Shown one piece after another: positions 22,051-55,643 of a stretch of DNA of 64,000 nt. The notes beneath the pieces were generated by a model. It searched no databases. It was not told the origin of the DNA and was given only the letters and a program-made list of their open reading frames with translations. Numbering within the stretch: position 1 is the first letter of the stretch; each line of letters opens with the position of its first letter. Origin of the DNA: Thauera phenolivorans. Its GTDB lineage: Bacteria; Pseudomonadota; Gammaproteobacteria; Burkholderiales; Rhodocyclaceae. A program made the position numbers and the translations under genes. The stretch covers positions 574,737 to 638,736 of the forward strand of contig NZ_MBFM01000004.1 in NCBI RefSeq assembly GCF_001696715.1, written 5' to 3'.

Positions 22051-22148
22051 CGCGCCGCCCCTTCCGGGGCAGTGGGGGCGGATGATACCGTACGGCCCGG
22101 AATCGTGCACGGCAGCGGAGCATCGGCGGGGTGGTCATCGCAGGCACC

Positions 22149-28512: not shown

Positions 28513-28554
28513 GGTTGTTGCGCGCGGGTGAGCGCCGCGCCCGCGATGACGGCC

Positions 28555-28743: not shown

Positions 28744-28792
28744 GGCGGTCGTACCAGCGACGCGGCTGCCGGGCTGCGGGTAGAATCCCGCC

Positions 28793-37413: not shown

Positions 37414-38148
37414 TTGCCCTTGCCGCTGTTCGCGACGAATGCAGCACATTGCCCGGCCCTGACCATGCTCGACATCTCAGCGCTTCTCGCCAATAAGCCC
37501 GTAGACCATCCAAATGCCGCGATCGAACACCTCTTGGCCACCTACACCCTACCCGTTTTCGGTGCGGCAAAGCAGGTCAAGCACGAGGTCGCGGCGCTGC
37601 GCGCCCTGAGTACTCTCGGCGCGCTCCCTGACAACGGTGACGAGTACCCACCCGTCACCACCTTGCGCATCACCAGGGCCAAAGCCCGCAACCTGCTCTA
37701 CCAGGACGCGCCCGACACCCTTACGTCACGGCAACAAATCGACGACGCGCTTCGTGCGCTCGTCATACATCCCACCTCAACGACGGACGGTGACCTCATC
37801 CTTCTCGAGATCCCCCAGCCCTTCCTGATGGATGCCCTGCGCCACCGCGTCCGCCAACTCGGCTTCCTGAGCGTCAGTAGGTTTGGCGGCAGCATCGCCC
37901 GACTTCCACTGCGCGCCCTCGCCGCGCTCATCGAGGACCTCGTCCCACCCGCCGAGCGCAAATCCGTGGCCGCGCAACTGCGACGCCAAGGCGTTGAAGG
38001 CGCCGATCTTCAGAGTCTTGTTCTTGGGCTCATAAAAACAGCAGGCCGTGCTGCAGTTGGAGCCGCCGGCGAGCACCTGGGTACAAGCATCGCCGAAAGA
38101 ATCGGGGCGGTGTTCAACTACGTCGCACACCAGACTCAAAGCAGCTAA
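37414..38148 (+). CDS. Unknown protein between wzz and wzx
   Basis: At most 244 aa from a TTG at 37,414, or 227 aa from the ATG at 37,465 (MLDISALL), which looks more natural; neither has a strong ribosome site. I recognise no family. It has no signal peptide or clear transmembrane segment, is mostly alpha-helical in appearance, and has a C-terminal GLIKTAGRAAVGAAGEHLG stretch. Codon use is coding-like and it is aligned with the O-antigen operon, 19 bp before the flippase gene. Could be an accessory or a leftover cargo gene. Confidence 0.6.
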   Translation: MPLPLFATNAAHCPALTMLDISALLANKPVDHPNAAIEHLLATYTLPVFGAAKQVKHEVAALRALSTLGALPDNGDEYPPVTTLRITRAKARNLLYQDAPDTLTSRQQIDDALRALVIHPTSTTDGDLILLEIPQPFLMDALRHRVRQLGFLSVSRFGGSIARLPLRALAALIEDLVPPAERKSVAAQLRRQGVEGADLQSLVLGLIKTAGRAAVGAAGEHLGTSIAERIGAVFNYVAHQTQSS

Positions 38149-38166: not shown

Positions 38167-39414
38167 GTGCCCTCCACCACCAAGCGCCTCCTCAACCTCT
38201 TCCTGCGTGCCGCCACGCTAGCGAGTAAGTTCGCGCTCATCTTCGCGCTGGCGAAGTTTCTGGAGCCGGCGGAAGTGGGGCTCTACGGGCTGGTTGCGGC
38301 GACAATCGGATACTGCCTTTTCATGCTCGGCCTAGAGTTCTACACGTATTCAATGCGCGAACTGATTGCATCGCCACCGCACGCACAGCCGAGCATTCTC
38401 CGGGATCAGATAGTCTTTTACCTCTTCACCTATGCTTTATTTCTGCCGCCATTAATTTTACTTTTCATGGGTGATTTTCTGCCCTGGATGCTCGTTTGTT
38501 GGTTTTACGTACTGCTCATCCTCGAGCACGTAGCACAAGAGTTGAATCGGGTGTTGGTTGCCCTATCTCTTCAACTGGAGGCTAGCATCGTTCTGTTCGT
38601 GCGGAGTGGCGCTTGGGGCTTAGCATTGATCCCGTTGATGTGGGCTACCCCCTCCCTCAGAGAGTTACATGCTGCGCTGGCTGCTTGGTCCATTGGTGCC
38701 GCTGCGGCCTGTGCACTGGGCGCTTGGTGGATTGTGCGCAAGTTCGAAGTACAGAATCCAAAACCGATAGACTGGCGCTGGATCAAAAGGGGAGTTCGCA
38801 TCGCATTACCCATGCTAATCGCTGCTTTGGCGATTCGAGGACTATTCACCTTTGATAGATACTGGGTTGAAGCCATCGGGGGACTCGACACTTTGGGTGC
38901 TTATGTGCTCTACGCAGGAATTGGCAATGCAGTAATCTCGTTCCTCGACGCTGGCGTGGTCGTATTTTTTTACCCTCGGTTAGTGAGTGCTGCACGCACG
39001 AACGACCTCCTTGGCTACAGGACCGCGATGAAGAGCCTAAGGATTAACATTATCCTTTCTACGTGCCTGCTTACCACACTGGCTTTTAGCGCTGCTTTTT
39101 TCATTGTCGAATGGCTCGACAAGCCCGACTATGACGAAAATTTCCACCTTCTAGCTTGGATCTTGGCTGCAATGCTGATTTACGGTCTCAGCCATACACC
39201 CCACCTCGGGCTGTACGCACAAGGAAGAGATCGGACGCTCGTACTGAGTCAGTTGGCAGCATTAGTAACTTTCTTGATTTCAGCCATTGCTCTAAATGAT
39301 AGCCTCGGCGTAACTTCAGTCCCAGCCGCACTATGCGCAGCATTCGCGGCGTTGTACCTCTGGAAAGCTTTGGCATACAAAGAGATGCTCAGAGAACTCA
39401 ACGTATCCACCTAA
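38167..39414 (+). CDS. wzx: Wzx-like O-antigen flippase (MATE/MOP superfamily)
   Basis: 415 aa with about twelve predicted transmembrane helices. The first, LRAATLASKFALIFALAKFLEPAEVGLYGLV, is characteristic of polysaccharide exporters of the MOP superfamily. It should flip the undecaprenyl-diphosphate-linked repeat unit to the periplasm. GTG start at 38,167. Noticeably lower G+C than flanking core genes, as is usual for wzx. Sits directly before the legionaminic-acid genes. Confidence 0.8.
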   Translation: MPSTTKRLLNLFLRAATLASKFALIFALAKFLEPAEVGLYGLVAATIGYCLFMLGLEFYTYSMRELIASPPHAQPSILRDQIVFYLFTYALFLPPLILLFMGDFLPWMLVCWFYVLLILEHVAQELNRVLVALSLQLEASIVLFVRSGAWGLALIPLMWATPSLRELHAALAAWSIGAAAACALGAWWIVRKFEVQNPKPIDWRWIKRGVRIALPMLIAALAIRGLFTFDRYWVEAIGGLDTLGAYVLYAGIGNAVISFLDAGVVVFFYPRLVSAARTNDLLGYRTAMKSLRINIILSTCLLTTLAFSAAFFIVEWLDKPDYDENFHLLAWILAAMLIYGLSHTPHLGLYAQGRDRTLVLSQLAALVTFLISAIALNDSLGVTSVPAALCAAFAALYLWKALAYKEMLRELNVST

Positions 39415-39435: not shown

Positions 39436-40416
39436 ATGAAAACTGCCCTTATCACTGGAGCCGATGGCTTTATCGGCTCACACTTGACCGAACTCCTCGT
39501 CCGCGAGGGCTTCAAGGTCAAAGCACTCTCCCAATACAACTCCTTCAACTATTGGGGATGGCTCGAGGACGTTGACTGCATCGGTGACATCGAAGTCTTG
39601 AACGGTGACGTTCGCGACCCTCACTACTGCAAACACATCACGAAAGATGTGGACGTCGTTTTTCACCTGGCTGCACTTATTGCCATTCCGTACTCTTATG
39701 TCGCACCAGATAGCTACGTCGACACCAACGTGAAGGGCACACTGAACATTTGCCAGGCTGCGCTTCAGAATGGCGTCGAACGCGTCATTCACACTTCAAC
39801 CAGCGAGGTCTACGGCACCGCGCATTATGTGCCCATCGACGAAAAGCATCCGCTTCAACCTCAATCGCCATACAGCGCCTCAAAGATTGGTGCGGATGCG
39901 ATGGCAATGAGCTTTTACAACGCGTTCGACCTTCCCCTCACGATCGCGCGCCCCTTCAATACCTACGGCCCTCGACAGTCGGCGCGCGCAGTGATCCCGA
40001 CGATCATCAGCCAGATCGCGAGCGGCAAGAAGCAAATCAAGCTCGGCGACGTTACCCCGACACGCGACTTCAACTACGTTGCCGACACGTGCCGCGGTTT
40101 CCTCGCCCTTGCCCGGTGCGACAAGGCGATCGGCGAAACAGTCAATATCGGCTCGAACTTCGAGATCTCAGTGGGTGACACACTGAAACTGATCCGAGAA
40201 CTGATGAAGAGCGACGTCGAGTTCCTCACCGACGAGCAACGAATCCGCCCGGGGAAGTCCGAGGTGTTCCGCCTGTGGTGCGACAACTCCAGGATCCGCG
40301 AACTGACTGGCTTCGAACCGCAGTACAGCATCCGTGATGGCCTGCAGGCTACGGTGGAATGGTTCACCCGGCCCGAGAACCTCGCCAAGTACAAAGCCGA
40401 CATCTATAACGTCTGA
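39436..40416 (+). CDS. legB: NDP-GlcNAc 4,6-dehydratase LegB-like (SDR)
   Basis: 326 aa extended short-chain dehydrogenase. GADGFIGSHL (NAD site), HLAALIAIPYSYVAPDSYVDTNVKGT, STSEVYGTA, YSASKIGAD (catalytic Tyr and Lys) and RPFNTYGPRQSARAVIPTII. The last features match the LegB group, which makes the 4-keto-6-deoxy intermediate of legionaminic acid (GDP-linked in Campylobacter). Assignment rests on motifs plus the six pathway genes that follow. It is 7 bp from the aminotransferase gene. Confidence 0.85.
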   Translation: MKTALITGADGFIGSHLTELLVREGFKVKALSQYNSFNYWGWLEDVDCIGDIEVLNGDVRDPHYCKHITKDVDVVFHLAALIAIPYSYVAPDSYVDTNVKGTLNICQAALQNGVERVIHTSTSEVYGTAHYVPIDEKHPLQPQSPYSASKIGADAMAMSFYNAFDLPLTIARPFNTYGPRQSARAVIPTIISQIASGKKQIKLGDVTPTRDFNYVADTCRGFLALARCDKAIGETVNIGSNFEISVGDTLKLIRELMKSDVEFLTDEQRIRPGKSEVFRLWCDNSRIRELTGFEPQYSIRDGLQATVEWFTRPENLAKYKADIYNV

Positions 40417-40423
40417 ACACACC

Positions 40424-41575
40424 ATGTTCGAATCCCTTGTCCGGTTCGTTCGCGAACAGTACCGCACCAACGAGTTCATCCCGCTTCATGCACCTGTCTT
40501 CGCAGGGCATGAACGGCAGTATGTGTCGGACACCATCGAGTCGACCTTCGTCTCCAGCGTCGGCGCGTACGTCGATCGTTTTGAACGCGATATCGCGACT
40601 TACACCACTAGTCCGCGGGCTGTTGCAACGGTGAACGGAACCGCCGCCCTCCACATCGCGCTTCAATTGGCGGGCGTGCGAACCGGTGAATTGGTGATCA
40701 CCCAGCCGCTGACCTTCGTGGCGACATGCAACGCAATCGCTTACTGCAACGCCGAACCCGTTTTCGTCGACGTCGACCGCCATACGCTCGGTCTATCCCC
40801 GAAAGCACTGGCAGCGTGGCTGGAAGAGCATGCCCACCTGGGTGACGACGGCCTGTGCCGAACCAAGATGGACGGTCGAGTTGTCCGTGCATGCGTGCCC
40901 ATGCACACCTTCGGCCATCCCGCAGACCTTGATGGACTCGTTGCGGTGTGTTCCGCATGGAAGCTTGCGTTGGTTGAGGATGCGGCCGAATCGCTGGGCA
41001 GTCTTTACAAGGGACAACATACAGGCACGTTCGGGCTGCTAGGGACGCTGAGCTTCAACGGCAACAAGATCATCACGACCGGTGGCGGCGGAATGATCCT
41101 CTCTGGCGAGGCACTGGCGACACGTGCAAAGCACCTGACAACTACCGCCAAAAAACCCCATCCGTTCGAATACGTGCACGACGAGCTCGGCTACAACTAT
41201 CGGCTGCCGAACCTGAATGCAGCCCTAGGCTGTGCGCAACTCGAACAGCTTGAGGAATTCGTCGCGAACAAGCGCGAACTCGCAGCCCGCTATGCTGAGC
41301 ACTTGAAAGGCAGCGACCTTCAGTTCGTCAGCGAGCCACCGGAATGCCGCTCCAACTATTGGCTCAATGCGGTCGTGTGTGAGGACCGAGAGCAGCGCGA
41401 TGCGCTGCTGAAGGCGAGCAACGCGCAGGGTGTCATGACACGGCCAATCTGGGCCCTCATGAACCACCTCTCGATGTACGCCTCCAGCCTGAAGGGTGAG
41501 CTTGCGAACGCGGAATGGCTGGAGGCGCGAGTGGTGAACTTGCCGAGTAGCGTGGTCCAGCGGAGCCTCGCATGA
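40424..41575 (+). CDS. legC: PLP-dependent 4-aminotransferase LegC-like (DegT/DnrJ/EryC1)
   Basis: 383 aa. N-terminal FIPLHAPVFAGHERQYV, then VNGTAALHIALQLAGV, VEDAAESLGSLYKG and LSFNGNKIITTGGGGM with the Schiff-base Lys. The VRFVREQY start is characteristic of the LegC group, distinct from PseC. It would aminate C4 of the 4-keto-6-deoxy-HexNAc nucleotide. ATG 40,424; overlaps legG by four bases. Confidence 0.87.
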   Translation: MFESLVRFVREQYRTNEFIPLHAPVFAGHERQYVSDTIESTFVSSVGAYVDRFERDIATYTTSPRAVATVNGTAALHIALQLAGVRTGELVITQPLTFVATCNAIAYCNAEPVFVDVDRHTLGLSPKALAAWLEEHAHLGDDGLCRTKMDGRVVRACVPMHTFGHPADLDGLVAVCSAWKLALVEDAAESLGSLYKGQHTGTFGLLGTLSFNGNKIITTGGGGMILSGEALATRAKHLTTTAKKPHPFEYVHDELGYNYRLPNLNAALGCAQLEQLEEFVANKRELAARYAEHLKGSDLQFVSEPPECRSNYWLNAVVCEDREQRDALLKASNAQGVMTRPIWALMNHLSMYASSLKGELANAEWLEARVVNLPSSVVQRSLA

Positions 41576-42735
41576 TAGGCAAGGTCGCGGTATTCACCGG
41601 AACCCGCGCCGAATACGGCTTGCTCTACTGGCTGATGAAAGACATCCAGGCGAGCAAGCATCTGACGTTGCAGGTGATCGTCAGCGGCATGCATCTGTCA
41701 CCAGAGTTCGGGGAGACCTGGCGACAGATCGAGACGGACGGTTTTTCAATCGACGCGAAGGTAGAAATGCTGCTTTCCTCCGACACTCCAGTCGGCGTGG
41801 TCAAGTCCATGGGCTTGGGCACGATTGGTTTTGCGGATGCGCTTGATCGCCTGCGCCCTGACTTGCTCATCGTACTTGGCGACCGCTTCGAAGCACTGGC
41901 TGTCGTCCAGGCTGCGTTGATCCTGCGCATTCCCGTGGCACACCTGCACGGTGGCGAGATCACAGAAGGCGCATACGATGACGCTATCCGACATGCAATC
42001 TCGAAGATGGCGAGCCTTCACTTCACCGCAACCGAAGCGTACCGACAGCGCGTGGTTCAGATGGGAGAGTCGCCCGAGACAGTTTTCAACGTGGGCGCAA
42101 TCGGTCTCGACCATCTGCTACGCACCGCGCCCATGACGCAGACCGAGCTATCGGCTAGTTTGGGTTTCGCCCTGCGTAAGCCCTATTTCCTGATGACATA
42201 TCACCCGGTGACCGTAGTTGACGAAGATCCCGAGGAGACATTTCGTTCCATGCTGACCGCCATCGACCGCTTTCCGGACTATCAGGCGCTCCTGACCTAT
42301 CCGAACGCCGACAACGGTGGCCGTAAAATTATCCCCTTGCTTGAGGACTACGCCCATCGTCACCCCGGGCGCGCAGCAGCGGTACCGTCCTTGGGTTTCA
42401 AACGCTACCTCAGCGCATTGCGCGGCGCTGAAGCAATGATCGGAAATTCCTCGAGCGGCATTATCGAAGCACCCTCCTTCGGCGTCCCGACCATCAACAT
42501 CGGAGCCCGTCAGCAAGGACGCCTCGCGGCAGAGTCTGTACTGCATTGCAAGGCAGATACTGCGTCGATCGAGTGCGCGATCACCAAGGCGATCTCACCC
42601 GAATTCAAGCTGCGCGCCAAAAATGCCGTCAACCCATACGGTCAAGGTAATGCGGCCGCTCAGATCGTCAACGTGATCGAACGACATTGCGGACGATTCG
42701 AGAAGCACTTCTACGATCAGGTGTCCCCACCATGA
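41572..42735 (+). CDS. legG: Hydrolysing NDP-sugar 2-epimerase LegG/NeuC-like
   Basis: 387 aa GT-B-fold epimerase. Motifs: FTGTRAEYGLLYWLMKDI, VLGDRFEALA, HLHGGEITEGAYDDAIRHA, NVGAIGLDHL and IGNSSSGIIEAPSFGVPTINIG. This set is shared by NeuC (sialic) and LegG (legionaminic) hydrolysing epimerases; LegG is chosen from the adjacent legB and legC. It frees 2,4-diacetamido-2,4,6-trideoxymannose for LegI. Overlaps both neighbours by ATGA junctions. Confidence 0.88.
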   Translation: MIGKVAVFTGTRAEYGLLYWLMKDIQASKHLTLQVIVSGMHLSPEFGETWRQIETDGFSIDAKVEMLLSSDTPVGVVKSMGLGTIGFADALDRLRPDLLIVLGDRFEALAVVQAALILRIPVAHLHGGEITEGAYDDAIRHAISKMASLHFTATEAYRQRVVQMGESPETVFNVGAIGLDHLLRTAPMTQTELSASLGFALRKPYFLMTYHPVTVVDEDPEETFRSMLTAIDRFPDYQALLTYPNADNGGRKIIPLLEDYAHRHPGRAAAVPSLGFKRYLSALRGAEAMIGNSSSGIIEAPSFGVPTINIGARQQGRLAAESVLHCKADTASIECAITKAISPEFKLRAKNAVNPYGQGNAAAQIVNVIERHCGRFEKHFYDQVSPP

Positions 42736-43811
42736 ACACGCCTCATGTCTACGTCATCGCCGAAGCGGGCGTTAACCACAATGGCCAGCGCGATCTTGCC
42801 CTTGCCCTTGTAGACGCTGCAGCCGACGCCGGAGCTGACGCGGTCAAATTTCAGACTTTCAGTGCAGCCAAGCTGGCGGCGGCATCCGCTCCGAAGGCCG
42901 CGTATCAAAAGCGCAGCACCGATGCCGCCGAAAGCCAACTGGCAATGCTGAAGAAGCTCGAGCTGCCGATCGAGTGGCATGCGCCACTTCAAGCGCATGC
43001 CAGAAAGCGTGGCATCGAGTTTCTCTCCACGGCGTTCGATACCGATAGTCTGACCTTCCTTGCTGTATTGGGCATGCCCCTCTTCAAGGTCCCTTCGGGC
43101 GAACTAACCAACGGACCGCTGCTCTGGCAGTTTGCCCGCACGGGCAAACCCCTCGTTCTGTCTACTGGCATGGCCACCCTCTCGGAAGTGGAACAAGCCC
43201 TCGCGATCGTCGCCCATGCCTTGAACGCGCCGGCAGAACCCCACTCCATTGATGAGGTTTGGCGCGACTGGAGCCGGCCCGATTATCGACAGAGCCTCAA
43301 CGGTCACGTCACACTGCTGCACTGCACATCCCAATATCCAACGCCCTATGGTGAAGTGAACCTTCGGGCAATGGATACGCTCTCGACAAGCTTCGGATTA
43401 GATGTCGGGTATTCCGATCACACCGAAGGCATCTTGATTCCCGTCGCCGCCGTAGCTCGCGGTGCCAAGGTCATCGAGAAGCACTTCACGCTCGACCGCA
43501 GCTTGCCGGGTCCCGATCACCAGGCCTCCCTGGAGCCTGCAGAGCTCAAGAGGATGGTGCGCGAGATCCGGGCTTTGGAGCGCGCACTCGGCGACGGTAG
43601 CAAGAGCCCGCAGCTCAGTGAATGGGACACGCGCCAGGCAGCCCGACAGCAGGTAGTGGCTGCCCGTAACATCAGCCAGGGAGCGACGATTGTCCGCGAG
43701 GACCTGACGACCGCGCGCTGCGGTAGTGGCCTGCCACCCACCGCACTTTGGGGCTTGGTCGGCCAACGTGCCACCCGTGCGTTTGAGGCGGGCGAGGTTA
43801 TCGAGGCATGA
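42732..43811 (+). CDS. legI: N,N'-diacetyllegionaminic acid synthase LegI (NeuB family)
   Basis: 359 aa. TIM-barrel part: YVIAEAGVNHNGQRDLALALVDAAADAG, AVKFQTF, FLSTAFD, KVPSGELTN, PLVLSTGMA, GYSDHTEG and KVIEKHFTLDRSLPGPDHQASL. C-terminal SAF (antifreeze-like) domain: ARNISQGATIVREDLTTAR. Condenses the 6-deoxy-diNAc-mannose with phosphoenolpyruvate. Legionaminic rather than sialic or pseudaminic specificity is inferred from legB/legC/legG. Confidence 0.9.
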   Translation: MNTPHVYVIAEAGVNHNGQRDLALALVDAAADAGADAVKFQTFSAAKLAAASAPKAAYQKRSTDAAESQLAMLKKLELPIEWHAPLQAHARKRGIEFLSTAFDTDSLTFLAVLGMPLFKVPSGELTNGPLLWQFARTGKPLVLSTGMATLSEVEQALAIVAHALNAPAEPHSIDEVWRDWSRPDYRQSLNGHVTLLHCTSQYPTPYGEVNLRAMDTLSTSFGLDVGYSDHTEGILIPVAAVARGAKVIEKHFTLDRSLPGPDHQASLEPAELKRMVREIRALERALGDGSKSPQLSEWDTRQAARQQVVAARNISQGATIVREDLTTARCGSGLPPTALWGLVGQRATRAFEAGEVIEA

Positions 43812-44467
43812 GCACGCCAAGCGACGCGGCGCTTCCTCTCATCCTGCTCGGAGCGGGTGGCCACGCGAAAGTGTTGCTTGCGCTTGCTCAGGCAGATCGA
43901 CGCTGCGTAATTGGCGTCTGCGATCCCCAGTTGGCACAGGACGGCCAGAAACAATGGCGAGGCATCCCCGTTCTTGGAGGAGACGATGCCGTCTATGACC
44001 ATAGCCCGGCACAGATAGGACTGATCAATGGCGTAGGGCAACTAGTCGGCAACTCAAGTCGAGCTCGGCTCTACCTTGCCCTGCGTCAACGGGGCTACCA
44101 TTTTCCCGCCTTGGTGCACCCCACCGCATGGGTTGCAGATGACGTCAAGCTAAGCGACGGTGTACAAGTCATGGCTGGCGTACGCATTCAGCCTGACTCC
44201 ACCATTGGTGAGAATTCCATTATCAACACCCAGGCCAGCGTCGACCACGACTGCCGGATCGCGGAGCACGTGCATGTTGCACCCGGTGCGACGCTATGTG
44301 GTGGCGTCCATGTCGGCGCGGGCGCTTTTATCGGCGCAGGCGCCGTAGTGATCCAAAGCCTGACCGTCGGCGCCAATGCCGTCGTCGGCGCCGGGATGAC
44401 ACTCACACGATGCCTCGCTGCAGGCAACATCCAAATCGGCGCAGCAAGCCGGCTCAAAACCACTTGA
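43808..44467 (+). CDS. NeuD/LegH-like hexapeptide-repeat acetyltransferase
   Basis: 219 aa. N-terminal Rossmann-like ILLGAGGHAKVLLALAQ, then left-handed beta-helix hexapeptide repeats from about residue 105 (VMAGVRIQPDSTIGENSIINTQASVDHDCRI with the catalytic His, then VHVAPGATLCG). NeuD-type proteins O-acetylate sialic acids, while the related LegH/PglD type N-acetylates the 4-amino group. The pathway here needs a 4-N-acetyltransferase after LegC and no other candidate is present, so LegH function is inferred. ATGA overlap with legI. Confidence 0.8.
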   Translation: MSTPSDAALPLILLGAGGHAKVLLALAQADRRCVIGVCDPQLAQDGQKQWRGIPVLGGDDAVYDHSPAQIGLINGVGQLVGNSSRARLYLALRQRGYHFPALVHPTAWVADDVKLSDGVQVMAGVRIQPDSTIGENSIINTQASVDHDCRIAEHVHVAPGATLCGGVHVGAGAFIGAGAVVIQSLTVGANAVVGAGMTLTRCLAAGNIQIGAASRLKTT

Positions 44468-44481
44468 TTCCCTTAAAGAGC

Positions 44482-45534
44482 ATGAAGAACTGGCAAGACG
44501 CCCTGGTTACACCCGACACCCCCCTTGAGACCGCCATCGCGACACTCGATAGAGGCGCACTGCGCATTGTGCTCATCGCCGACGAGGAACGTCGACTCCT
44601 TGGCACGCTCACCGACGGAGACGTTCGCCGCGCCCTTCTTAAACACCTGCCGTTGGATCTTCCCGTTAGCCAGGTGATGTGCTCGGCGCCGCAGACAGCA
44701 CAACTGAGTTGGAGCAAAGACAGAATGCTTGCGGTCATGGAGAGCAAGCAACTCCTTCACTTGCCGGTAGTTGACGACGAGGGCCGCATCGTAGCTCTGG
44801 ATACCCTGCACGACCTTCTCGACCGCCGACGCTCGGACAACCCGGTTTTCCTGATGGCAGGCGGATTCGGAACGCGTCTTCACCCCCTTACCCACGACTG
44901 CCCAAAACCCCTACTCAAGGTCGGCGGCAAGCCTATCCTCGAAATCATCCTCGAAGGCTTCATCAAATCTGGTTTTCATCGCTTTTTCATTTCAACACAC
45001 TATCTCCCAGAGATGATCCGTGATCATTTTGGGGACGGATCCCGCTGGGGCGTAACGATCCGCTATGTGCACGAGGAGACACCGCTCGGCACTGGCGGGG
45101 CCCTCGGTCTTTTACCCCATGACGAGATCGAAAGCCCCCTGTTGATGATGAACGGCGATTTGCTCACCACGCTCGACTACCGTGAGCTTCTCGCTTTTCA
45201 CAATGAACACGGCGGCGTCGCAACGATGTGCGTCCGTAACTACGAGTTCCAGGTTCCGTACGGTGTCATTCAAAGCGAAGGCCATCGGATCCGTTCCATG
45301 ATCGAGAAACCCATCCAGCGATTTTTCATTAACGCCGGGATTTATGTGCTTTCGCCCGAGATCATCAAGACGGTGAAGACTCAGACGCGCATAGATTTAC
45401 CCACACTCCTCGAACGGGAAATATCCATAGGGAGCGATGTAACCATGTTCCCCTTGCACGAGTATTGGCTCGACATCGGAAAGATGGACGATTTCAAACG
45501 CGCCCAGAGCGAAATCAACGGACTCTTCCAATGA
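44482..45534 (+). CDS. ptmE: CBS-domain sugar-phosphate nucleotidyltransferase PtmE-like
   Basis: 350 aa. Two N-terminal CBS motifs (to about residue 120) are fused to a nucleotidyltransferase: LMAGGFGTRLHPLTHDCPKPLLKVGGKPILE, LGTGGALGLL, LMMNGDLLT and a late HEYWLDIGKMDDF. This fusion matches PtmE, which in Campylobacter makes the GDP-hexosamine entering the legionaminic route. Its presence suggests GDP- rather than UDP-linked intermediates here. ATG 44,482; overlaps legF by four bases. Confidence 0.83.
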   Translation: MKNWQDALVTPDTPLETAIATLDRGALRIVLIADEERRLLGTLTDGDVRRALLKHLPLDLPVSQVMCSAPQTAQLSWSKDRMLAVMESKQLLHLPVVDDEGRIVALDTLHDLLDRRRSDNPVFLMAGGFGTRLHPLTHDCPKPLLKVGGKPILEIILEGFIKSGFHRFFISTHYLPEMIRDHFGDGSRWGVTIRYVHEETPLGTGGALGLLPHDEIESPLLMMNGDLLTTLDYRELLAFHNEHGGVATMCVRNYEFQVPYGVIQSEGHRIRSMIEKPIQRFFINAGIYVLSPEIIKTVKTQTRIDLPTLLEREISIGSDVTMFPLHEYWLDIGKMDDFKRAQSEINGLFQ

Positions 45535-46217
45535 AAATTCTCGCACTGATCCCCGCGCGAGGCGGTTCGAAGCGGCTTCCCGGCAAGAACATAAAACCCC
45601 TCAACGGTCTCCCGCTGATAGCGTGGACGATCCGGAGTGCCCAGCAAAGCGGCGTCTGTGCCGCAATACAAGTCTCCACCGATGACCCGCGCATTGCCGA
45701 GGTCGCGACGCAATACGGTGCCGAGGTTCCTGGACTACGTCCGGCAGAACTCTCAACTGATACGGCGACGAGTGTTGATGTAGCACTTCACGCGCTTGAT
45801 TGTTACGAACAAAAGGAAGGGCCGATCGACGGATTGATGCTCCTTCAACCCACATCGCCATTCCGGCGCGTCGAGACAATACGAGAGGGTGTTCGGCTGT
45901 ATGAGAGGTACAACGCCGGACGTCCTGTTGTTAGCTTTAGTCCCGCTCTGACACATCCTAACTGGTGTTTCAAGAGGGCCGCTGATGGGATGGAGCCGTT
46001 TTTGGGCTGGGCAGACTTAAGCGCGAGATCTCAGGATTTAAGCACAGCTTGGACCCTTAACGGGACTCTCTATTTGATCTGTCCAAATGATTTAAGAACG
46101 GCGAGAACATTTGTCACTCCGAATTTATCACCCCTACTTCTTCACGATTATCGAGAGGGAGTCGACATCGATACCCCAGAGGACTGGGCGCTAGCCGAGC
46201 GGCTGGCTAAAGACTAA
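45531..46217 (+). CDS. legF: CMP-legionaminic acid synthetase LegF (NeuA family)
   Basis: 228 aa cytidylyltransferase. LALIPARGGSKRLPGKNIKPLNG (CTP site), VSTDDPRIAEVA, LLQPTSPFR and DTPEDWALAE with the expected acidic residues. It activates the nine-carbon sugar with CMP for transfer. The shorter, single-domain form is that of LegF/PseF. G+C falls towards its 3' end, continuing into the next gene. Confidence 0.88.
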   Translation: MKILALIPARGGSKRLPGKNIKPLNGLPLIAWTIRSAQQSGVCAAIQVSTDDPRIAEVATQYGAEVPGLRPAELSTDTATSVDVALHALDCYEQKEGPIDGLMLLQPTSPFRRVETIREGVRLYERYNAGRPVVSFSPALTHPNWCFKRAADGMEPFLGWADLSARSQDLSTAWTLNGTLYLICPNDLRTARTFVTPNLSPLLLHDYREGVDIDTPEDWALAERLAKD

Positions 46218-46312: not shown

Positions 46313-47272
46313 ATGCAAGAAAACAAAATCTCTGTTTTTGTTGGCTTCACGCCGTATCACGCACACTTAGCAGCACAGATAATCGAGCAGACTGACGGAG
46401 CAATATACTGCATATTCAGTAAAATTTGGCCCGACACAGCAAAACACTACACACGATTCGGCGGGAACTCGCCCACACCGGGAGCAATTAATTTAATAAT
46501 ATCATTAATCCGTTTTTCCATATTTATTCATCTATCTTCAAGGCGTAAAACTTTAGTAGATATTTATATTCCACACCCGGGGCATATTTTCACAAACTAT
46601 CTCTTTCACACTGAGAAACTTAGAAAAAGACTTTTTATCTATGAAGATGGACTTCTTAACTATGTGGACACAAACTCGAAAAGCCTTTTTGTAACCCGAC
46701 TTAAGCGGTTACTTTCATACATCGTCGGATTGCCGTACACCGACTACTCCGGCCACACTGCTGGGTACGACATCAGATGCTACGATGGCGCGTTCTTGAC
46801 AATGCCTGAAAGAGCAGTGCGAAAAGATCGACTTGGAAAAATACATAACCTGAATACAGCAAGGCCACCTATTTCAACCATTGCCCGCAGAATTCTATTT
46901 CTCGACCAAGATGTCTCTGGCTATATAACGGAAACGAATCGGCAAGAGTGCATAGAGAGAATGCTCAACACTTATCCTCTAGGAACTTTCGAATACCACT
47001 ACAAACCTCACCATGATTTTAAGTCAAAGATCTCAGATCTAATGACGCCGCTCTCCCCCGCAATTTCAGCCTACCCTGCGGAAGTTTTGATCGACAGAAT
47101 CAGACCAAGCCTGGTAATCAGTTTCTTCAGTTCAGCCCTGATCAACATTAAGCACGGCTGGCCAGAGATCGAATGTGTATCGCTTGCAGCAGATCAAGTC
47201 CGTATTACCCGTGACAGCGTGCCGACCACGCTGCGCGAACTCTTCCAAGATGTTGGAGTGAGATGCTTGTAA
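46313..47272 (+). CDS. Candidate nonulosonic-acid transferase (bacterial sialyltransferase-like motifs)
   Basis: 319 aa, soluble. By eye it shows the three short motifs shared by bacterial sialyl- and polysialyltransferases (GT38/52/80 type): an acidic-acidic-Gly motif in FIYEDGLLNY (about residue 116), an H-P type motif in YHYKPHHDF (about 227) and a serine pair in ISFFSSALI (about 266). N-terminal VFVGFTPYHAHLA is a plausible CMP-fold start. With CMP-legionaminate made next door it is the obvious transferase candidate. G+C is far lower than any neighbour, so it was probably acquired separately. Overall similarity is too low to name by reading alone. Confidence 0.6.
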   Translation: MQENKISVFVGFTPYHAHLAAQIIEQTDGAIYCIFSKIWPDTAKHYTRFGGNSPTPGAINLIISLIRFSIFIHLSSRRKTLVDIYIPHPGHIFTNYLFHTEKLRKRLFIYEDGLLNYVDTNSKSLFVTRLKRLLSYIVGLPYTDYSGHTAGYDIRCYDGAFLTMPERAVRKDRLGKIHNLNTARPPISTIARRILFLDQDVSGYITETNRQECIERMLNTYPLGTFEYHYKPHHDFKSKISDLMTPLSPAISAYPAEVLIDRIRPSLVISFFSSALINIKHGWPEIECVSLAADQVRITRDSVPTTLRELFQDVGVRCL

Positions 47273-47374: not shown

Positions 47375-48826
47375 ATGCTTGGACAACATCAACTGCCATC
47401 GGGCAGCGCCCTCAAAAATGGATTACTGCTGAGGGGCGCCGTATTACGGCTGTTGCTGCTGCTGTTCCTCACCCTCTTCGGCACCGGCGCCTACTTCATC
47501 GCACTGACCCGCAGTAATTACGTCGATCCAAACGTCAGCCTGCTGATAATAGCATCGGCACTTTATTTTCTGTTGCTGTGCCTCATATCCGTCACAAAAC
47601 GGTCCTATTACTGGGCAGCACTTCCGCTCGTTATTCTTAGTGTCCCCAACGCAATCAACGATTTTTTCCCATCCATGTACATGGGCCCACCCGATGCGAG
47701 CGTGGATCCGCCAGCTTTCGCGCTGTTCACACATATTGACCTTTTTCTGATACTCGGCCTGCTTCGGCATGGGCGCTTCAGGTTCTCTAGGCAGCTAGTC
47801 GCCGCAGGTTTCGCCGCCCTATTCATCGCCTTTTTTGTTGTCACCAACTACTTGACCAGCGCCTGGTCCACCAACGGCATCTACGGGCTCTACCAAATTC
47901 GATATGCCCTATTAGTTTACTTAGTATTCCGCACAATCGGCTTCGACAACGCGCGACGTCCGTTCGTGCTCGGGCTGATTGCGGCCATTGTCCTAACCCT
48001 GATGGAAACGCTGGTCCTCTCCTTTCTCTTAGCACCGGCCGGCCACCTGATCAGCGGCAATCTTGGCAAGAACCCACTGGGCCATTTCGGCGCAGCTGCG
48101 CTGAGTTTTTTCATGTTTTATCGTGCCCCCAAAGCCGTCATACTGCATAAGTATCTCCCGCTTGGGATCGCCACACTCCTGATGCTCGGCTCCGGCACTC
48201 GCTTCTCCGTCGTCGCCGCATTGGCCTCACTACTACTGGTCCATTCAATACGCTCGTCGACGATATTGAAGAACGCGGCATATTTTTTTATTGGCGCGCT
48301 CGCAATACTCACCCTTCTCCTCGTCACCCCGCAAGGAAAAAGCATCGTCGGGGGGATAGCCCACGTCAGCGAGAGTATCACTGCACCGGATTTAATCGAA
48401 CGTACGCCAGAATCCAGCTCGATGATCACTCGGCTTCAGACGTGGTTGAATACTATCGACATGGCCAGCAAACATTGCCTGACCGGTGTTGGACCGGGCA
48501 ACTGGACTTTCCTGAAAGGCGATTTCCATATTCCGTACGAAGGCCTGCTCGATCCTCACAACGATCTGCTCAATTTCGTCGTCTCCTACGGCGTACCTTT
48601 CGGGCTGCTGTTCTATGCAGCAATTTTGATCTACCCATTAATTGCCGGACATCGAATTTCATTCCAACGCCACGACGAGTTCCTGCAAGGTTGCTATGCT
48701 TTCATTCTCTGCATCGCACTCACCGGACTGACGAACGCGACACTTTGGAAGCACTCGATATTCGGATTAACCTGCATCTTCGCTTGCATTTTGATCTTCA
48801 GCCGGCGAGAGCAAATCACGAAATGA
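47375..48826 (+). CDS. wzy: Wzy-like O-antigen polymerase (Wzy_C family)
   Basis: 483 aa, about eleven to twelve hydrophobic helices. LGSGTRFSVVAALASLLLV and the periplasmic loop SMITRLQTWLNTIDMASKHCLTGVG...LLDPHNDLLNFVVSYGVPFGLLFY are the Wzy_C signature with conserved Arg and H-N-D. Given its place among sugar-nucleotide and transferase genes it is taken as polymerase and the protein at 32,980 as ligase, but the two could be reversed. ATGA overlap with the next glycosyltransferase. Confidence 0.72.
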   Translation: MLGQHQLPSGSALKNGLLLRGAVLRLLLLLFLTLFGTGAYFIALTRSNYVDPNVSLLIIASALYFLLLCLISVTKRSYYWAALPLVILSVPNAINDFFPSMYMGPPDASVDPPAFALFTHIDLFLILGLLRHGRFRFSRQLVAAGFAALFIAFFVVTNYLTSAWSTNGIYGLYQIRYALLVYLVFRTIGFDNARRPFVLGLIAAIVLTLMETLVLSFLLAPAGHLISGNLGKNPLGHFGAAALSFFMFYRAPKAVILHKYLPLGIATLLMLGSGTRFSVVAALASLLLVHSIRSSTILKNAAYFFIGALAILTLLLVTPQGKSIVGGIAHVSESITAPDLIERTPESSSMITRLQTWLNTIDMASKHCLTGVGPGNWTFLKGDFHIPYEGLLDPHNDLLNFVVSYGVPFGLLFYAAILIYPLIAGHRISFQRHDEFLQGCYAFILCIALTGLTNATLWKHSIFGLTCIFACILIFSRREQITK

Positions 48827-49932
48827 CAAAAACTCTTTATATTTTAGGCACCCGTGGCGTCCCTGCCCAGCACGGCGGTTTTGAAACCTTCGCCGAGAAA
48901 CTCTCTCTGTTCCTCGTTAAGCGAGGGTGGCAGGTCACTGTTTTCTGCCAGGAGGATGGTGATGGCAACGCTTGGGCGAGCGTTTGGGAGGGCGTGCGGC
49001 GTATCCACATTCCAGTGAGTAGGGCCGGCGCCGCAGGGACGGTCATCTTCGATTGGAAAGCGACGCGTCGCGCACTCTCAGAGCACGGATTGTTTCTCAC
49101 CCTGGGGTACAACACCGCGCTCTTCAACCTGATGCAACGACTCAGGCAGCAGAAGAATGTGATCAACATGGACGGGATTGAATGGCGTCGCGACAAGTGG
49201 GGCCTTATTGCCAAAACTTGGTTCTGGCTCAACGAGCGCGCGGGCTGTTGGATCGGCAACCACCTTGTTGCCGATCACCCGCGCATCAAAGACCACCTCG
49301 CCACACGAGTCAGCGAAGACAAGATCACGATGATCCCCTATGGGGGCGACGAGGTCCTTTCAGCAGATGCAGGGCTGCTCACTGCATACGACATTGAACC
49401 TGGTCAGTTCTCTGTGATCATCGCCCGCCCCGAGCCCGAAAACTCGTTCCTTGAGATGGTTCGCGCCTTCAGTTCAAAGGAGCGCGGCCACAAATTGGTG
49501 GTGCTGGGCAATTTCAATCCTGACCGCAACCCCTTCCACAAAGAGGTAATGAGCGCTGCGAGCGAAGAGGTAATCTTCCCCGGCGCGATCTATGAGGCGC
49601 CCGTGGTCCAGGCCTTGCGCTTTTACAGCCGGTTCTACTTGCACGGCCACCGGGTCGGTGGCACGAACCCCTCCCTCGTTGAAGCCTTGGGTGCGGGCTG
49701 CGCTGTGATCGCGCACGACAACCACTTCAACCGCTGGGTGGCGGGGCCGGAAGCCGCCTATTTCAAGGACGAAGCCGAGTGCGCTGCACTTTTCGATCGC
49801 CTTCTTTCAGACGATGCAGCCGTGCAGCGTATGAAGGCTGCCAGCCGCGCACGCTTCTATGAGCGTTTTACTTGGGAGCAGGTGTTGAGTGAGTACGAGG
49901 AATTGCTCACACGCTGGTATCCAAAGAACTGA
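48823..49932 (+). CDS. Glycosyltransferase with DUF1972 N-terminal domain (rhamnosyltransferase-like)
   Basis: 369 aa. N-terminal LYILGTRGVPAQHGGFETFAEKL is the DUF1972 signature found before GT4 domains in WsaC/Rfb-type rhamnosyl- and related transferases. Then NMDGIEWRRDKWG, PYGGDEV, IARPEPENSFLEMV, LGNF and HGHRVGGTNPSLVEALGAGC with the family's modified EX7E. Its neighbour rmlBAC suggests a dTDP-sugar donor, but this is inference. It precedes rmlB by 12 bp. Confidence 0.85.
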   Translation: MTKTLYILGTRGVPAQHGGFETFAEKLSLFLVKRGWQVTVFCQEDGDGNAWASVWEGVRRIHIPVSRAGAAGTVIFDWKATRRALSEHGLFLTLGYNTALFNLMQRLRQQKNVINMDGIEWRRDKWGLIAKTWFWLNERAGCWIGNHLVADHPRIKDHLATRVSEDKITMIPYGGDEVLSADAGLLTAYDIEPGQFSVIIARPEPENSFLEMVRAFSSKERGHKLVVLGNFNPDRNPFHKEVMSAASEEVIFPGAIYEAPVVQALRFYSRFYLHGHRVGGTNPSLVEALGAGCAVIAHDNHFNRWVAGPEAAYFKDEAECAALFDRLLSDDAAVQRMKAASRARFYERFTWEQVLSEYEELLTRWYPKN

Positions 49933-49944: not shown

Positions 49945-51018
49945 ATGAATCATCGCATCCTCGTCACCGGCGGAGCCGGCTTCATCGGCTCCGCCGTGGT
50001 TCGGCACTTGATCGAAAGTACGACGCACCACGTCGCCAACCTCGACAAGCTGACTTATGCCGGCAATCTCGAATCGCTATCCTCGATCGCGGACTCGTCG
50101 CGCTACCGCTTCCACCAGGTCGATATCTGCAACGCTGGAGCCTTGGACCAGGTCTTCGCCGAGTTCCGCCCCACTGCGGTGATGCACCTCGCCGCCGAAT
50201 CCCATGTGGACCGCTCGATCGACGGCCCGGCCGAGTTCATCCAGACCAACATGGTCGGCACCTACACGCTGCTCGAGGCCGCGCGCCGGTACTGGAATGG
50301 CCTCGCCGATGATGCGAAGGCCGCGTTCCGCTTCCACCACATCTCCACCGACGAGGTGTATGGCGACCTGGAAGGCACGGACGATCTGTTCACCGAAACC
50401 ACACCTTACGCGCCGAGTTCGCCCTACTCCGCCTCCAAGGCCAGCTCCGATCATCTGGTGCGGGCGTGGCAGCGGACCTACGGCCTGCCGACGCTGGTGA
50501 CCAACTGTTCGAACAACTACGGGCCCTACCATTTCCCGGAAAAGCTCATCCCGCACATGATCCTCAACGCCCTGGCGGGCAAGCCGCTGCCGGTGTATGG
50601 CGATGGATCGCAGATTCGGGATTGGCTCTATGTGGAGGACCACGCCCGGGCGCTGGTCGAGGTGGTGACGCGGGGGAAGGTTGGGGAGACCTACAACATC
50701 GGCGGGCACAACGAGAAGCGGAATCTCGAGGTGGTGGAGACGATTTGCGATCTGCTCGATGAGATGGTGCCGTGGGTAGATCGGGGACAAACCAGCTCAT
50801 ACAGGGAGCTGATCACCTTCGTGAAGGATCGGCCGGGGCACGATCGCCGGTACGCGATCGATGCTTCGAAGATCGAACGCGAGCTGGGATGGAAGCCGCA
50901 GGAAACCTTCCAAAGCGGCATTCGCAAGACCGTGCGGTGGTATCTGGACAATCGTCAGTGGTGGGAGCGCGTGCTCGACGGCAGCTACCAGTTGGCCCGT
51001 TTGGGAGAGAAGGCATGA
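49945..51018 (+). CDS. rmlB: dTDP-glucose 4,6-dehydratase RmlB
   Basis: 357 aa. [13 protein letters not shown] (NAD), [34 protein letters not shown] (catalytic Thr-Asp-Glu), [33 protein letters not shown] and [15 protein letters not shown], all diagnostic for RmlB. Second step of dTDP-6-deoxysugar synthesis. G+C rises again towards core-genome values within this gene. Confidence 0.96.
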
Positions 51019-52680: not shown

Positions 52681-52819
52681 CTCCCGCGACGGGCAGCGAC
52701 CCGTCGCCCGGCCGCGACCTGGGGCTTGGGTTCGATCTGGAAGTAGGCGAGCTTGCGAGTAAACTAAAGGCCACGAAGGTCGTGGTTGTGATCTGAGCAT
52801 TCTTTTGAAAGGGAAACAC

Positions 52820-53152
52820 ATGCCGACGTATGTCGAATTGATGGCGCAGATCGAGGCGCTGCAGAAAGAGGCGGAGCAGGTCCGTCAGAACGAGATCGAC
52901 GGCGTGATCGCCGAGATCAAGCAGAAGATCAGCGACTACGATCTCACCGCGGCCGACCTCGGTTTTGGACCTGCCGCACCCGCGCGGGAAGAAAGGCCGG
53001 CGCAGCCGTCAAAACGCGGCACGGTGAAGCCGAAGTACCAGGACCCGATCTCGGGCAAGACCTGGAGCGGCCGCGGCGTGATGCCGAAGTGGATGAAGGC
53101 CGCGGTCGAGGCCGGGCGCAGCCGCGACGAGTTCCTGATCCCGCAAGACTGA
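52820..53152 (+). CDS. H-NS family nucleoid-associated regulator
   Basis: 110 aa. N-terminal coiled-coil oligomerisation part (YVELMAQIEALQKEAEQVRQNEIDGVIAEIK), a linker, and the C-terminal DNA-binding motif in KYQDPISGKTWSGRGVMPKWM. This is the betaproteobacterial H-NS/BpH3 type. ATG at 52,820 follows GAAAGGGA. It stands alone between rmlC and the initiating transferase. H-NS proteins silence AT-rich DNA, and lower-G+C O-antigen genes adjoin it, so local silencing is plausible but unproven. Confidence 0.9.
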   Translation: MPTYVELMAQIEALQKEAEQVRQNEIDGVIAEIKQKISDYDLTAADLGFGPAAPAREERPAQPSKRGTVKPKYQDPISGKTWSGRGVMPKWMKAAVEAGRSRDEFLIPQD

Positions 53153-53201: not shown

Positions 53202-54587
53202 ATGCCCCACTCCCTGCGCTATTCACCCACCTTCGCCGAACGGTATCCGGTGGCGTTCGCCGTCGCCCTGATCGACGCCGGCATTGCCCTGTTCGCAGCG
53301 CACCTGGCGTACTTCATCCGCTTCGACAGCTTCGATATCAGCCCCCGATATCTGGTGGGTGCGATTGTGTGGGCGTGTCTGGTGGTGGGCTCGCTGTTCG
53401 TCATGGGGGCGTACGGCTCATGGCGCGGGCAACCCTTCCTGCGCCACGTGTCGGGCGTGGTCGGTGGCTGGCTGCTCGCGGCGGCGCTGCTGACGATGCT
53501 GGGCTTTCTGCTGAAGACTTCCGAAAGCTATTCGCGCCTGTGGTTCATGTACACGATGGCGATCAGCGCCGGACTGGGCAGTGGCTTGCGCCTGCTGGGC
53601 TTCCTGGCGCTGCGTCGCGCGCGCCGCGCGGGACGAAACCTGAAACAGGTGGTGGTGGTGGGCCCTGCCAGCCGAAAGGGCTTGCGGCTACCACCCGAGC
53701 TCGCGCTGCGCGAGCATGGTTATGCGATTGCGGAGGTGCTGGACTGCAGCGACTCGCCGGACTGGGTGACCAAGCTGCCAGACCAGGTGGACGCAACAGG
53801 CGCCCACGAGGTGTGGCTGATGCTGCCGCTGAGCGAAGGGGCACTGATCCAGTCCGCCGTATATGGGCTGCGCCACCATGTGGTGTCGATCCGCTTCATG
53901 CCGCAGCTTGACGATCTGCCGCTGCTCAATCACCGGGTGAGTCACGTCGCGGGCGCCTATTCGATCGACCTCAGCGTCAGCCCGATGGACGGGGCCGCGA
54001 GAGTCGTCAAGCGGGCGGAGGACCTGATCGTCGGAACCCTGATCGCGCTGTTGATCCTTCCGGTCTGCGCGCTCATCGCGATCGCGATCAAGGCGACCTC
54101 GCCCGGACCGGTGCTGTTCAAGCAGCATCGTACCGGCATCAGCGGCAAACGCTTCAAGGTGTACAAGTTCCGCTCCATGGTCGTCCATCAGGAATCGGAC
54201 GGGCATGTCACCCAGGCGCGCAAGGGCGACGCCCGGATCACGCCGATCGGCGCCTTCCTGCGCCGTACCAGCCTCGACGAGTTGCCACAGTTCTTCAATG
54301 TGCTGCAGGGGCGCATGTCGATCGTCGGTCCGCGCCCGCACGCCCTGGCGCACAACGAGTATTACAAGGATCTCGTCGAGTCCTACATGCAGCGCCACAA
54401 GGTGAAGCCGGGAATCACCGGCTGGGCGCAGGTAAATGGCCTGCGGGGCGAGACAGACACGCTCGAGAAGATGAAGGCCCGCGTCGAGCACGACCTCTGG
54501 TACATCGACAACTGGTCGCTGTGGCTCGACCTGAAGATCATCTTCCTGACGGTGTTCAAGGGGTTCGTGAATCCGAATGCATATTGA
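53202..54587 (+). CDS. Undecaprenyl-phosphate sugar phosphotransferase (WbaP/WcaJ-type PHPT)
   Basis: 461 aa polyisoprenyl-phosphate hexose-1-phosphate transferase. N-terminal four hydrophobic helices, a central CoA-binding-like domain (VVVVGPASRKG), then a membrane hairpin and the catalytic domain: RAEDLIVGTLIALLILPVCALIAIAIKATSPGPVLFKQHRTG, KVYKFRSM, RRTSLDELPQFFNVLQGRMSIVGPRPH and PGITGWAQVNGLRGET. It starts O-unit assembly by loading the first sugar-phosphate (often glucose) on undecaprenyl phosphate. Placed at the end of the O-antigen locus. Confidence 0.92.
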   Translation: MPHSLRYSPTFAERYPVAFAVALIDAGIALFAAHLAYFIRFDSFDISPRYLVGAIVWACLVVGSLFVMGAYGSWRGQPFLRHVSGVVGGWLLAAALLTMLGFLLKTSESYSRLWFMYTMAISAGLGSGLRLLGFLALRRARRAGRNLKQVVVVGPASRKGLRLPPELALREHGYAIAEVLDCSDSPDWVTKLPDQVDATGAHEVWLMLPLSEGALIQSAVYGLRHHVVSIRFMPQLDDLPLLNHRVSHVAGAYSIDLSVSPMDGAARVVKRAEDLIVGTLIALLILPVCALIAIAIKATSPGPVLFKQHRTGISGKRFKVYKFRSMVVHQESDGHVTQARKGDARITPIGAFLRRTSLDELPQFFNVLQGRMSIVGPRPHALAHNEYYKDLVESYMQRHKVKPGITGWAQVNGLRGETDTLEKMKARVEHDLWYIDNWSLWLDLKIIFLTVFKGFVNPNAY

Positions 54588-54777: not shown

Positions 54778-54910
54778 ATCGCGCTGAGGGCAGCGCTCCT
54801 ACAGCCGGTGCCACCGCAGACGAAGCCCCCGTAGGAGCCCTGCCCCCAGGGCGATAACAGCGGTTGTCGCGGCGATGGGCGCCTCAATCGCGCTGGGGGC
54901 AGCGCTCCTA
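54778..54910. repeat. REP cluster downstream of the initiating transferase gene
   Basis: Minus elements (ATCGCGCTGAGGGCAGCGCT then CCTAC; ATCGCGCTGGGGGCAGCGCT) end at 54,801 and 54,910; a plus element GTAGGAGCCCTGCCCCCAGG starts at 54,830. The preceding stretch 54,588-54,770 has no gene, RNA or other repeat that I can see. Confidence 0.85.
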
Positions 54911-55219: not shown

Positions 55220-55620
55220 TGCTGCGCTATCTGCTGGATACCAACATCGTCATCTACGTGATCAAGCGCCGACCCTTGTCCGCGCTCGGCTTGTTCAACG
55301 AAAACGCGGGGCACATGGCGATCTCGTCGATCACCTTGGCCGAACTGCTGCATGGCGCGGAAAAGAGCAACGCGCCCGCGAAGTCGCTCGCCGCAGTGGA
55401 GGATTTCTGTAGCCGCCTGGAAGTCCTGCCCTATGGCCCAAAGGCGGCGATGCACTACGGCAGCATCCGGGCGAACCTGGAACGCCGCGGGCTCACGATC
55501 GGGGTGAACGACGTGCACATCGCCGCGCACGCTCGCAGCGAAGGGTTGACGCTGGTGTCGAACAACATTCGCGAGTTCGAGCGGGTAGAGGCGCTGCAGC
55601 TAGCGAATTGGGCGATCTGA
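55219..55620 (+). CDS. vapC: VapC toxin (PIN-domain ribonuclease)
   Basis: 133 aa PIN domain. YLLDTNIVIYVIKRRP holds the first catalytic Asp, SSITLAELLHGAEKS the Glu, and GVNDVHIAAHARSEGLTLVSNNIREFERV the remaining Asp/Asn acidic cluster. Intact, so probably an active endonuclease that targets tRNA or rRNA when freed. Flanked on both sides by REP clusters, which is consistent with insertion into a variable intergenic site. Confidence 0.92.
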   Translation: MLRYLLDTNIVIYVIKRRPLSALGLFNENAGHMAISSITLAELLHGAEKSNAPAKSLAAVEDFCSRLEVLPYGPKAAMHYGSIRANLERRGLTIGVNDVHIAAHARSEGLTLVSNNIREFERVEALQLANWAI

Positions 55621-55643
55621 CCACCGCCGTGCCCCAAGCCCCC

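Follow-up and report, generated by a model that had tools for sequence, protein, structure and literature searches.

A candidate CMP-legionaminic acid transferase related to bacterial polysialyltransferases in a Thauera polysaccharide cluster

Few transferases for legionaminic acid (Leg), a bacterial sugar resembling sialic acid, are catalogued, and those that have been named differ in kind. The initial annotation of the DNA studied here had called them poorly catalogued, and one paper agrees, describing information on them as 'very limited in general'; by the same paper, sialyltransferases of other origin have served in the synthesis of Leg glycans (PMC11356810). Maf4 of C. jejuni is a putative legionaminyl transferase that modifies flagellin (PMC9298399), and B. 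subtilis makes Leg, although according to one report neither of the neighbouring proteins SpsA and SpsB is its CMP-Leg transferase (PMC7439481). KpsS1 of A. baumannii is a retaining GT118 pseudaminyltransferase related to the WbbB/KpsC-type Kdo transferases (PMC12887879), and a survey of that species placed most polysaccharide glycosyltransferase (GT) genes in four Pfam families, GT52 being one (PMC3726653). A. baumannii also provides two related nonulosonate (NulO) transferases, Gtr13 (K5, Leg) and Gtr94 (K46, pseudaminic acid, Pse), which are 75% identical and use galactose as the acceptor; their capsule loci are close relatives with different NulO cassettes (PMC6586298).

The subject of this study is a candidate CMP-Leg transferase of 319 aa (46313..47272, + strand), a GT-B protein similar to PF07388/GT38 on the basis of its PF07388 score, structural match and residue map. 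Its gene lies in a 64,000-nucleotide stretch of the Thauera phenolivorans genome, referred to as the window. The kind of transferase is already known; its comparative setting is unusually clear. The M. haemolytica polysialyltransferase SiaD (GT38; structures 5wc6 and 5wcn) resembles it in a GT-B fold match with Z 15.4 and in four active-site elements that fall in register (PMC5517516). However, the two are 12–14% identical in structural alignments, SiaD has HP where the window protein has HH, and the window protein belongs to a Wzx/Wzy-type cluster with its own polymerase and has a different predicted donor. Gtr13 and Gtr94, compared by their description, are a published precedent for the exchange of Leg and Pse cassettes together with related transferases (PMC6586298). 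KpsS1 likewise transfers an NulO but, as described, is set apart by its retaining mechanism and its kinship with Kdo transferases. Maf4 has the donor predicted here, CMP-Leg, but is a flagellin-modifying Maf protein, and this genome gave no match to PF01973. In the literature searched, which left most subscription journals outside its scope, we found no paper linking the polysialyltransferase family, or a sialyltransferase of an O-antigen cluster, to Leg, and none naming PF07388.

We assign a probability of about 0.7 to the reading that the 319-aa protein is a GT-B transferase that adds Leg from CMP-Leg to a lipid-linked repeat unit of a surface polysaccharide. If so, the candidate might also be put to use in the synthesis of Leg glycans.

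A Leg gene set within a polysaccharide cluster

Seven + strand genes make up the Leg set. They encode a LegB 4,6-dehydratase (39436..40416; TIGR04180, 521.9 bits against a cut-off of 475), a LegC aminotransferase (40424..41575, scanned as 40334-41575; TIGR04181, 534.2 against 420), a LegG/NeuC-type 2-epimerase (41572..42735; TIGR03568, 488.1 against 235.9), a LegI/NeuB-type synthase (42687..43811; TIGR03569, 460.2 against 399.65, the PseI model reaching 274.4, below its cut-off of 340.25), a NeuD-family sugar acetyltransferase (43808..44467; TIGR03570, 201.4 against 160.8), a protein with CBS and nucleotidyltransferase domains (44431..45534; PF00571 and PF00483 above cut-off), which we take to be PtmE-like, and a LegF-like CMP-NulO synthetase (45534..46217), which scored 162.9 bits with the PseF model TIGR03584, below the cut-off of 205.7. 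Together these seven genes would suffice to make CMP-Leg.

The set is preceded by a gene for a Wzx-type flippase (38167..39414, +; PF01943, 24.1 bits, below the cut-off of 28.2), which is 40–47% identical to the Wzx proteins of six Pse clusters. Further along the same strand are genes for a Wzy-type polymerase (47375..48826; PF04932, 2.5e-13), a GT4 protein like the beta-1,4-rhamnosyltransferase Cps2T (48820..49932, scanned from 48745; NF046071, 175 bits, below the cut-off of 500), an RmlB-like protein of a dTDP-rhamnose set (49945..51018; named from its translation and 83–87% identical to matches at loci L040, L041 and L050) and a WcaJ-type glucose-1-phosphate transferase, the predicted starter of the repeat unit (53202..54587; TIGR03023, 491 bits against 410.75). 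The Cps2T-like protein is 67–80% identical to its counterparts in five Pse clusters. The cluster also contains Wzz and, in addition to the RmlB-like gene, genes that look like RmlA and RmlC. The presence of Wzz, Wzx, Wzy, the Cps2T-like GT4, WcaJ and the Rml genes thus marks it as a Wzx/Wzy-type polysaccharide cluster, whose product would contain hexose, rhamnose and Leg. Among the assigned open reading frames on this strand between Wzz and WcaJ, the Cps2T-like GT4 and WcaJ are the only other sugar transferases.

In the pathway we propose, the seven upstream genes would make CMP-Leg, WcaJ would start a lipid-linked repeat unit with a hexose phosphate and the Cps2T-like rhamnosyltransferase would extend it. 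The 319-aa GT-B transferase, predicted to be inverting, would add Leg to the growing lipid-linked unit, which Wzx would flip and Wzy polymerize. The donor, the acceptor, the linkage and its inversion, and the order of the sugars are all predicted elements of this scheme.

The reading frame of the transferase is intact from ATG to TAA. It begins 95 bases after the cytidylyltransferase gene, the last of the Leg set, and is followed by the gene for the Wzy-type polymerase, all on one strand, in agreement with its first description as a 319-aa frame following a Leg gene set. It had also been described as far more AT-rich than its neighbours, and its G+C content of 44.0% (GC3 45.3) is indeed below that of every one of the 17 other cluster genes measured (52.5–64.9%); the window as a whole has 67.4%. 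The 60-base line at 46501, for which a value below 30% had been given, has 28.3% G+C, the lowest of all such lines in the window. Low G+C in the transferase gene is not peculiar to the Thauera genome: in six relatives from Pse clusters it was 34.8–48.9% in five and 62.3% in the other.

Two further genes of the cluster were also seen. A 244-aa open reading frame between wzz and wzx (37414-38148) is without a Pfam match, and a small H-NS-like protein (PF00816) is encoded between the RmlC-like gene and wcaJ (52805-53152).

Family, fold and predicted active site

The initial annotation regarded the gene as an orphan. This needs correction, because its product scores 32.7 bits over residues 103-289 with the bacterial polysialyltransferase family PF07388 (A-2_8-polyST), above the curated cut-off of 23.3. 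The annotation had proposed a profile search with polysialyltransferase and GT52 models; the first thus placed the protein in a family, while with the second (CAZy GT52/Pfam PF07922) it remained under the cut-off, at 19.4 bits against 26.1. Its close relatives straddle the PF07388 cut-off, with 24.2 bits for L040, 24.0 for L041 and 18.4, below it, for L036. PF01973 (the MptE-like/Maf domain) was absent from the Pfam matches of the protein at E ≤ 10.

Single proteins and narrow profiles found little in the PDB. The 319-aa protein alone (phmmer) gave no sialyltransferase and three unrelated, non-significant matches, and neither the L018 protein alone nor a profile of four close relatives gave any match. 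A profile of four diverse members reached PmST1 at E 0.006. We then used an alignment of 13 homologues, comprising the window protein and 12 of the 24 non-window loci fetched by that point, picked by eye and extending down to 16% identity (left out were L019-L025, L027-L030 and L038, of which L021, L024, L027 and L029 have NulO sets). Within it, 12 of the 13 members match PF07388 at E ≤ 1 and four match GT52. This profile found SiaD at E 8.3e-7, aligned over profile positions 60 to 311, and entries of the GT80 enzyme PmST1 from E 2.6e-4, the similarity to the latter being confined to short stretches. Since some of the 13 members had been found through PF07388, or through profiles containing such members, the match to SiaD does not count as independent evidence for the family assignment; the PF07388 match of the 319-aa protein itself does.

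A structure model of the protein, built from three sequences, was of fair quality (pLDDT 77.3, pTM 0.75); four other models had pLDDT values of 62.0–68.8. Among 1000 chains compared by VIA-align, 5wc6 came first (Z 15.4, rmsd 6.3, 287 residues aligned), followed by 5wcn (Z 15.1, rmsd 6.5, 290 aligned) and the Photobacterium sialyltransferases 2zwi (Z 14.7, rmsd 4.8, 272 aligned) and 2z4t (Z 13.5, rmsd 5.1, 267 aligned), so that all of the best four are sialyl- or polysialyltransferases. Foldseek also ranked 5wc6 first (E 5.2e-7) and 5wcn second (E 2.8e-6), and its next matches were epimerases and GT4-type or other GT-B enzymes. The structure comparison advised in the initial annotation therefore ends, with both programs and for a predicted model, on a polysialyltransferase. 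The GT80 enzymes (PmST1 and those of Photobacterium) are likewise CMP-sialate transferases, with VIA-align Z values of 11.7–14.7, but none is among the 50 matches listed by Foldseek. The modelled GT-B fold is close to 5wcn by a narrow margin over other GT-B proteins. In particular, non-hydrolysing UDP-GlcNAc 2-epimerases match the model with Z up to 13.1, against which 15.4 is a small lead. An epimerase function was considered and rejected, because it would leave the sialyltransferase residues unexplained and the cluster already has a NeuC-type epimerase; we take the likeness as a general GT-B resemblance.

The three motifs picked out by eye in the initial annotation are more than a chance selection, since they coincide with conserved columns across the 13 homologues. 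The acidic-acidic-Gly motif YEDGLLNY is present as Y110-E111-D112-G113-LLNYVDT (46640..46672, +), in which D112 is the predicted catalytic base, and the serine pair of FFSSALI as S270-FF-S273-S274-A-L276 (47120..47140, +), with S273 and S274 predicted to bind phosphate. The HP-type motif KPHH exists as K231-P232-H233-H234-D (47003..47017, +) but reads HH rather than HP, as it does in the four closest relatives. A further element, P255-A-E257 (47075..47083, +), holds the predicted ribose-binding Glu. H233, S273 and L276 are the sole invariant columns of the 13-homologue alignment, and M1, G113 and E257 are nearly so. In the profile alignment E111, D112, H233, E257, S273 and S274 fall opposite SiaD E152, E153, H291, E323, S339 and T340, and all six SiaD residues show the same offset of 19 from the published numbers. 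In SiaD, E153 is the catalytic base, H291 serves the leaving group, E323 the ribose, and S339 and T340 the phosphate (PMC5517516). All three motifs thus align with catalytic and CDP-binding positions, and the window protein has the base loop, the HP-motif His, the ribose Glu and the phosphate Ser/Thr characteristic of GT38, with His in place of the HP proline. By analogy with the M. haemolytica enzyme, D112 would act as the base, H233 would stabilize the CMP leaving group, E257 would hold the ribose, and S273 and S274 the phosphate.

Of the 18 proteins linked to Leg or Pse cassettes, 14 were also used to count conservation, the window protein being one of them and L021, L024, L027 and L029 being omitted. 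His at position 233 and Ser at 273 are present in all 14, while position 112 is acidic, 257 is Glu and 274 is Ser or Thr in 13 each; position 111 is acidic in nine. Among these 14, His takes the place of the HP proline in just five, the window protein and the four relatives nearest to it.

From these alignments and the model, CMP-NulO transfer is well supported as the probable activity, and we have good confidence that the protein is a GT-B CMP-NulO transferase. The nearest named Pfam family and the nearest structure are both polysialyltransferases, and it is conceivable that the protein is a processive polymerase making poly-Leg, as GT38 enzymes do polysialic acid. We regard this as highly improbable, given that the cluster, with its own Wzy, Wzx, Wzz, WcaJ and rhamnose genes, is laid out for a mixed repeat unit, and that many of the loci with homologues of the broad family have no polysialic acid genes.

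Close relatives beside Pse cassettes and the choice of donor

The annotated inference of a CMP-Leg transferase holds for CMP-NulO transfer; its Leg part comes from gene content, and the nearest relatives lie beside Pse cassettes. If the donor is a CMP-NulO that the cell itself produces, it is most likely CMP-Leg. The genome (3.69 Mb in 14 contigs, completeness given as 100) was searched with single Pse proteins as queries. These found one NeuB-family synthase, in this cluster and reported in two pieces, and no close match to PseB, the best of eight matches being 39% identical and in a 681-aa frame. The name 'legionaminyl' would accordingly derive from the adjoining Leg set and the one genomic NulO synthase. 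Maf-mediated flagellin modification in this genome is unlikely, since PF01973 gave no match there, in a search whose positive controls were all archaeal and which could miss a divergent bacterial Maf. A distant homologue on a plasmid of Aestuarium zhoushanense (L002, 25% identity) is likewise preceded by a Leg set and a flippase-like protein. Its reading frame (14764-15723) is absent from an incomplete gene table, which lists a CDS starting at 15644 in another frame.

The four closest relatives, 36–47% identical to the window protein, are those at L040 (P. alcaligenes NBRC 14159), L041 (Pseudomonas sp. PIC25), L036 and L048. In all four the transferase gene comes directly after the PseI gene of a Pse cassette, with a related Wzx before it and a Cps2T-like GT4 after it; at L036 six Pse genes score above the NCBIfam cut-offs. 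WcaJ is found downstream at L036, L041 and L048, the L040 stretch ending earlier, and RmlB at L040 and L041. Between the transferase and Cps2T there is a Wzy match at L041 and L048, an open reading frame at L040 and no Wzy match at L036. Identity between the window and these four loci is 67–80% for Cps2T, 45–46% for Wzx, 36–47% for the transferase and 34–36% for LegI against PseI, and the four transferases are 38–56% identical to each other. In a tree, the window protein falls inside the close clade (91/96) and joins L040 and L048 (88/81), which is moderate support; of the ten inner branches, the one uniting L036 and L041 alone reaches the strict mark of the program, five lack resolution, and many of the terminal branches are long. 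As the closest relatives follow Pse cassettes in largely matching clusters and the window gene branches from within their group, it seems from the sequences that the NulO cassette, not the transferase, was exchanged beside a conserved assembly frame. On this reading, the transferase either followed the exchange by changing its donor or was never strict.

The second of these possibilities would make the protein a broad-donor NulO transferase, still a pseudaminyl-type Pseudomonas enzyme, that takes CMP-Leg as the only CMP-NulO present. The window protein is about as distant from its four close Pse-linked relatives as they are from one another, and both supports for its nesting (91/96 and 88/81), although below the strict mark, agree with such an origin. 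A marker for the donor was also sought among the 14 Leg- or Pse-linked proteins. At residue 118, four of five Leg-linked proteins have Val or Ile and five of the nine Pse-linked ones have Tyr. As a separator, however, this position came third among 253 columns, and 114 of 300 label shuffles produced a best column that equalled or surpassed the best one observed; we therefore do not claim it as a donor marker. That shuffled labels often yield a separation as good as that of the best column is in line with broad donor use, whereas specificity residues may go unrecognized among so few sequences. Because the ring configurations of Leg and Pse are different, one would not at the outset expect an enzyme to use both, and we consider broad use unlikely.

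A CMP-Leg transferase stays the preferred reading. We further suggest, tentatively and at somewhat less than even odds, that the clade with HH for HP forms a branch of its own among the GT-B NulO transferases, within which one scaffold enzyme switched its donor from CMP-Pse to CMP-Leg on cassette exchange. If this donor switch is true, the pair of the window enzyme and the P. alcaligenes enzyme would isolate the determinant of donor stereochemistry. The candidate, with its assignable catalytic residues, and its four Pse-cluster relatives form a panel for asking how an NulO transferase distinguishes the two sugars.

The NulO made at L041, L048 and L049 may be a modified variant, because at these loci the interval from PseC to PseG gave no regular match to PseF. 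At L041 (4885-7310), the place of PseF is taken by an apparent fusion of a cytidylyltransferase with an aldo-keto reductase, followed by an SDR.

Distribution of the wider family and features around the cluster

Counting the window genome wherever it was sampled, a match was found in one of 297 genomes of the same family, which is the window genome itself. The PF07388 model matched 14 of 369 genomes in a sample of the class, and the four-sequence profile five of 398 in a sample of the phylum. Matches were found in six of 398 genomes of the family of G1016 (apparently Pseudomonadaceae), 14 of 390 of its order, one of 48 of the class of G747, one of 40 of the order of G631 and the single genome of the order of G369. 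A search of genome contigs gave two loci. A mobile origin of the 319-aa gene was also tried as an explanation and dropped; no relatives were confirmed on viral contigs, none were found in phage records, and the plasmid search gave one hit.

Neighbouring cassettes were recorded for 37 non-window loci, in stretches of up to about 20-30 kb and with matches of at least 30% identity and E ≤ 1e-8. This census took every locus, including weak family matches (E up to 1e-3) and longer proteins (L024, L027, L028, L091 and others), and some may not be true family members. A Leg cassette occurs at five loci (L002, L018, L024, L026 and L080, with LegB and LegC of L026 expected beyond its stretch), a Pse cassette at 12 and a Neu-type one at two (L051 and L088, so called because they are without LegB and PseB), or 19 of 37 in all. 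Three more loci (L037, L038 and L091) have partial, unclear signs of NulO genes. The remaining 15 stretches hold no NulO gene, four of them (L020, L023, L028 and L030) being short pieces; the wider family therefore often has an NulO neighbour, but is not confined to NulO loci.

These 15 loci are relevant to a reading in which the protein transfers another repeat-unit sugar common to the clusters, and the addition of Leg or Pse falls to the Cps2T-like GT4 or to the product of a gene elsewhere. An acceptor-side enzyme of this kind would be expected to be kept while the NulO cassette changes, as the gene is. However, the sialyltransferase-type residues, the best structural matches to CMP-sialate enzymes, the position directly after an NulO synthetase or synthase gene and the 19 cassette-bearing loci make this reading distinctly improbable, and argue for NulO transfer as above. 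Similar motifs were seen by eye at L079, L081, L083, L086, L087 and L090, which have no NulO genes within about 10 kb.

Outside the region from Wzz to WcaJ, a second Wzy_C/O-antigen-ligase protein (32980-34245), perhaps a WaaL-type ligase, lies beside genes for GT25 and GT4 proteins on the opposite strand. A dispersed repeat carrying GTAGGAGC..CAGGGCGATA and resembling REP-type elements is found around the polysaccharide region (28535-28747, 54778-54908 and 55591-55909), where its copies of 106-131 bases, with shorter inverted arms, are arranged in tandem as well as in either orientation. The window also contains a cobalamin riboswitch (RF00174, 84.8 bits) at 21837-22063 on the − strand.
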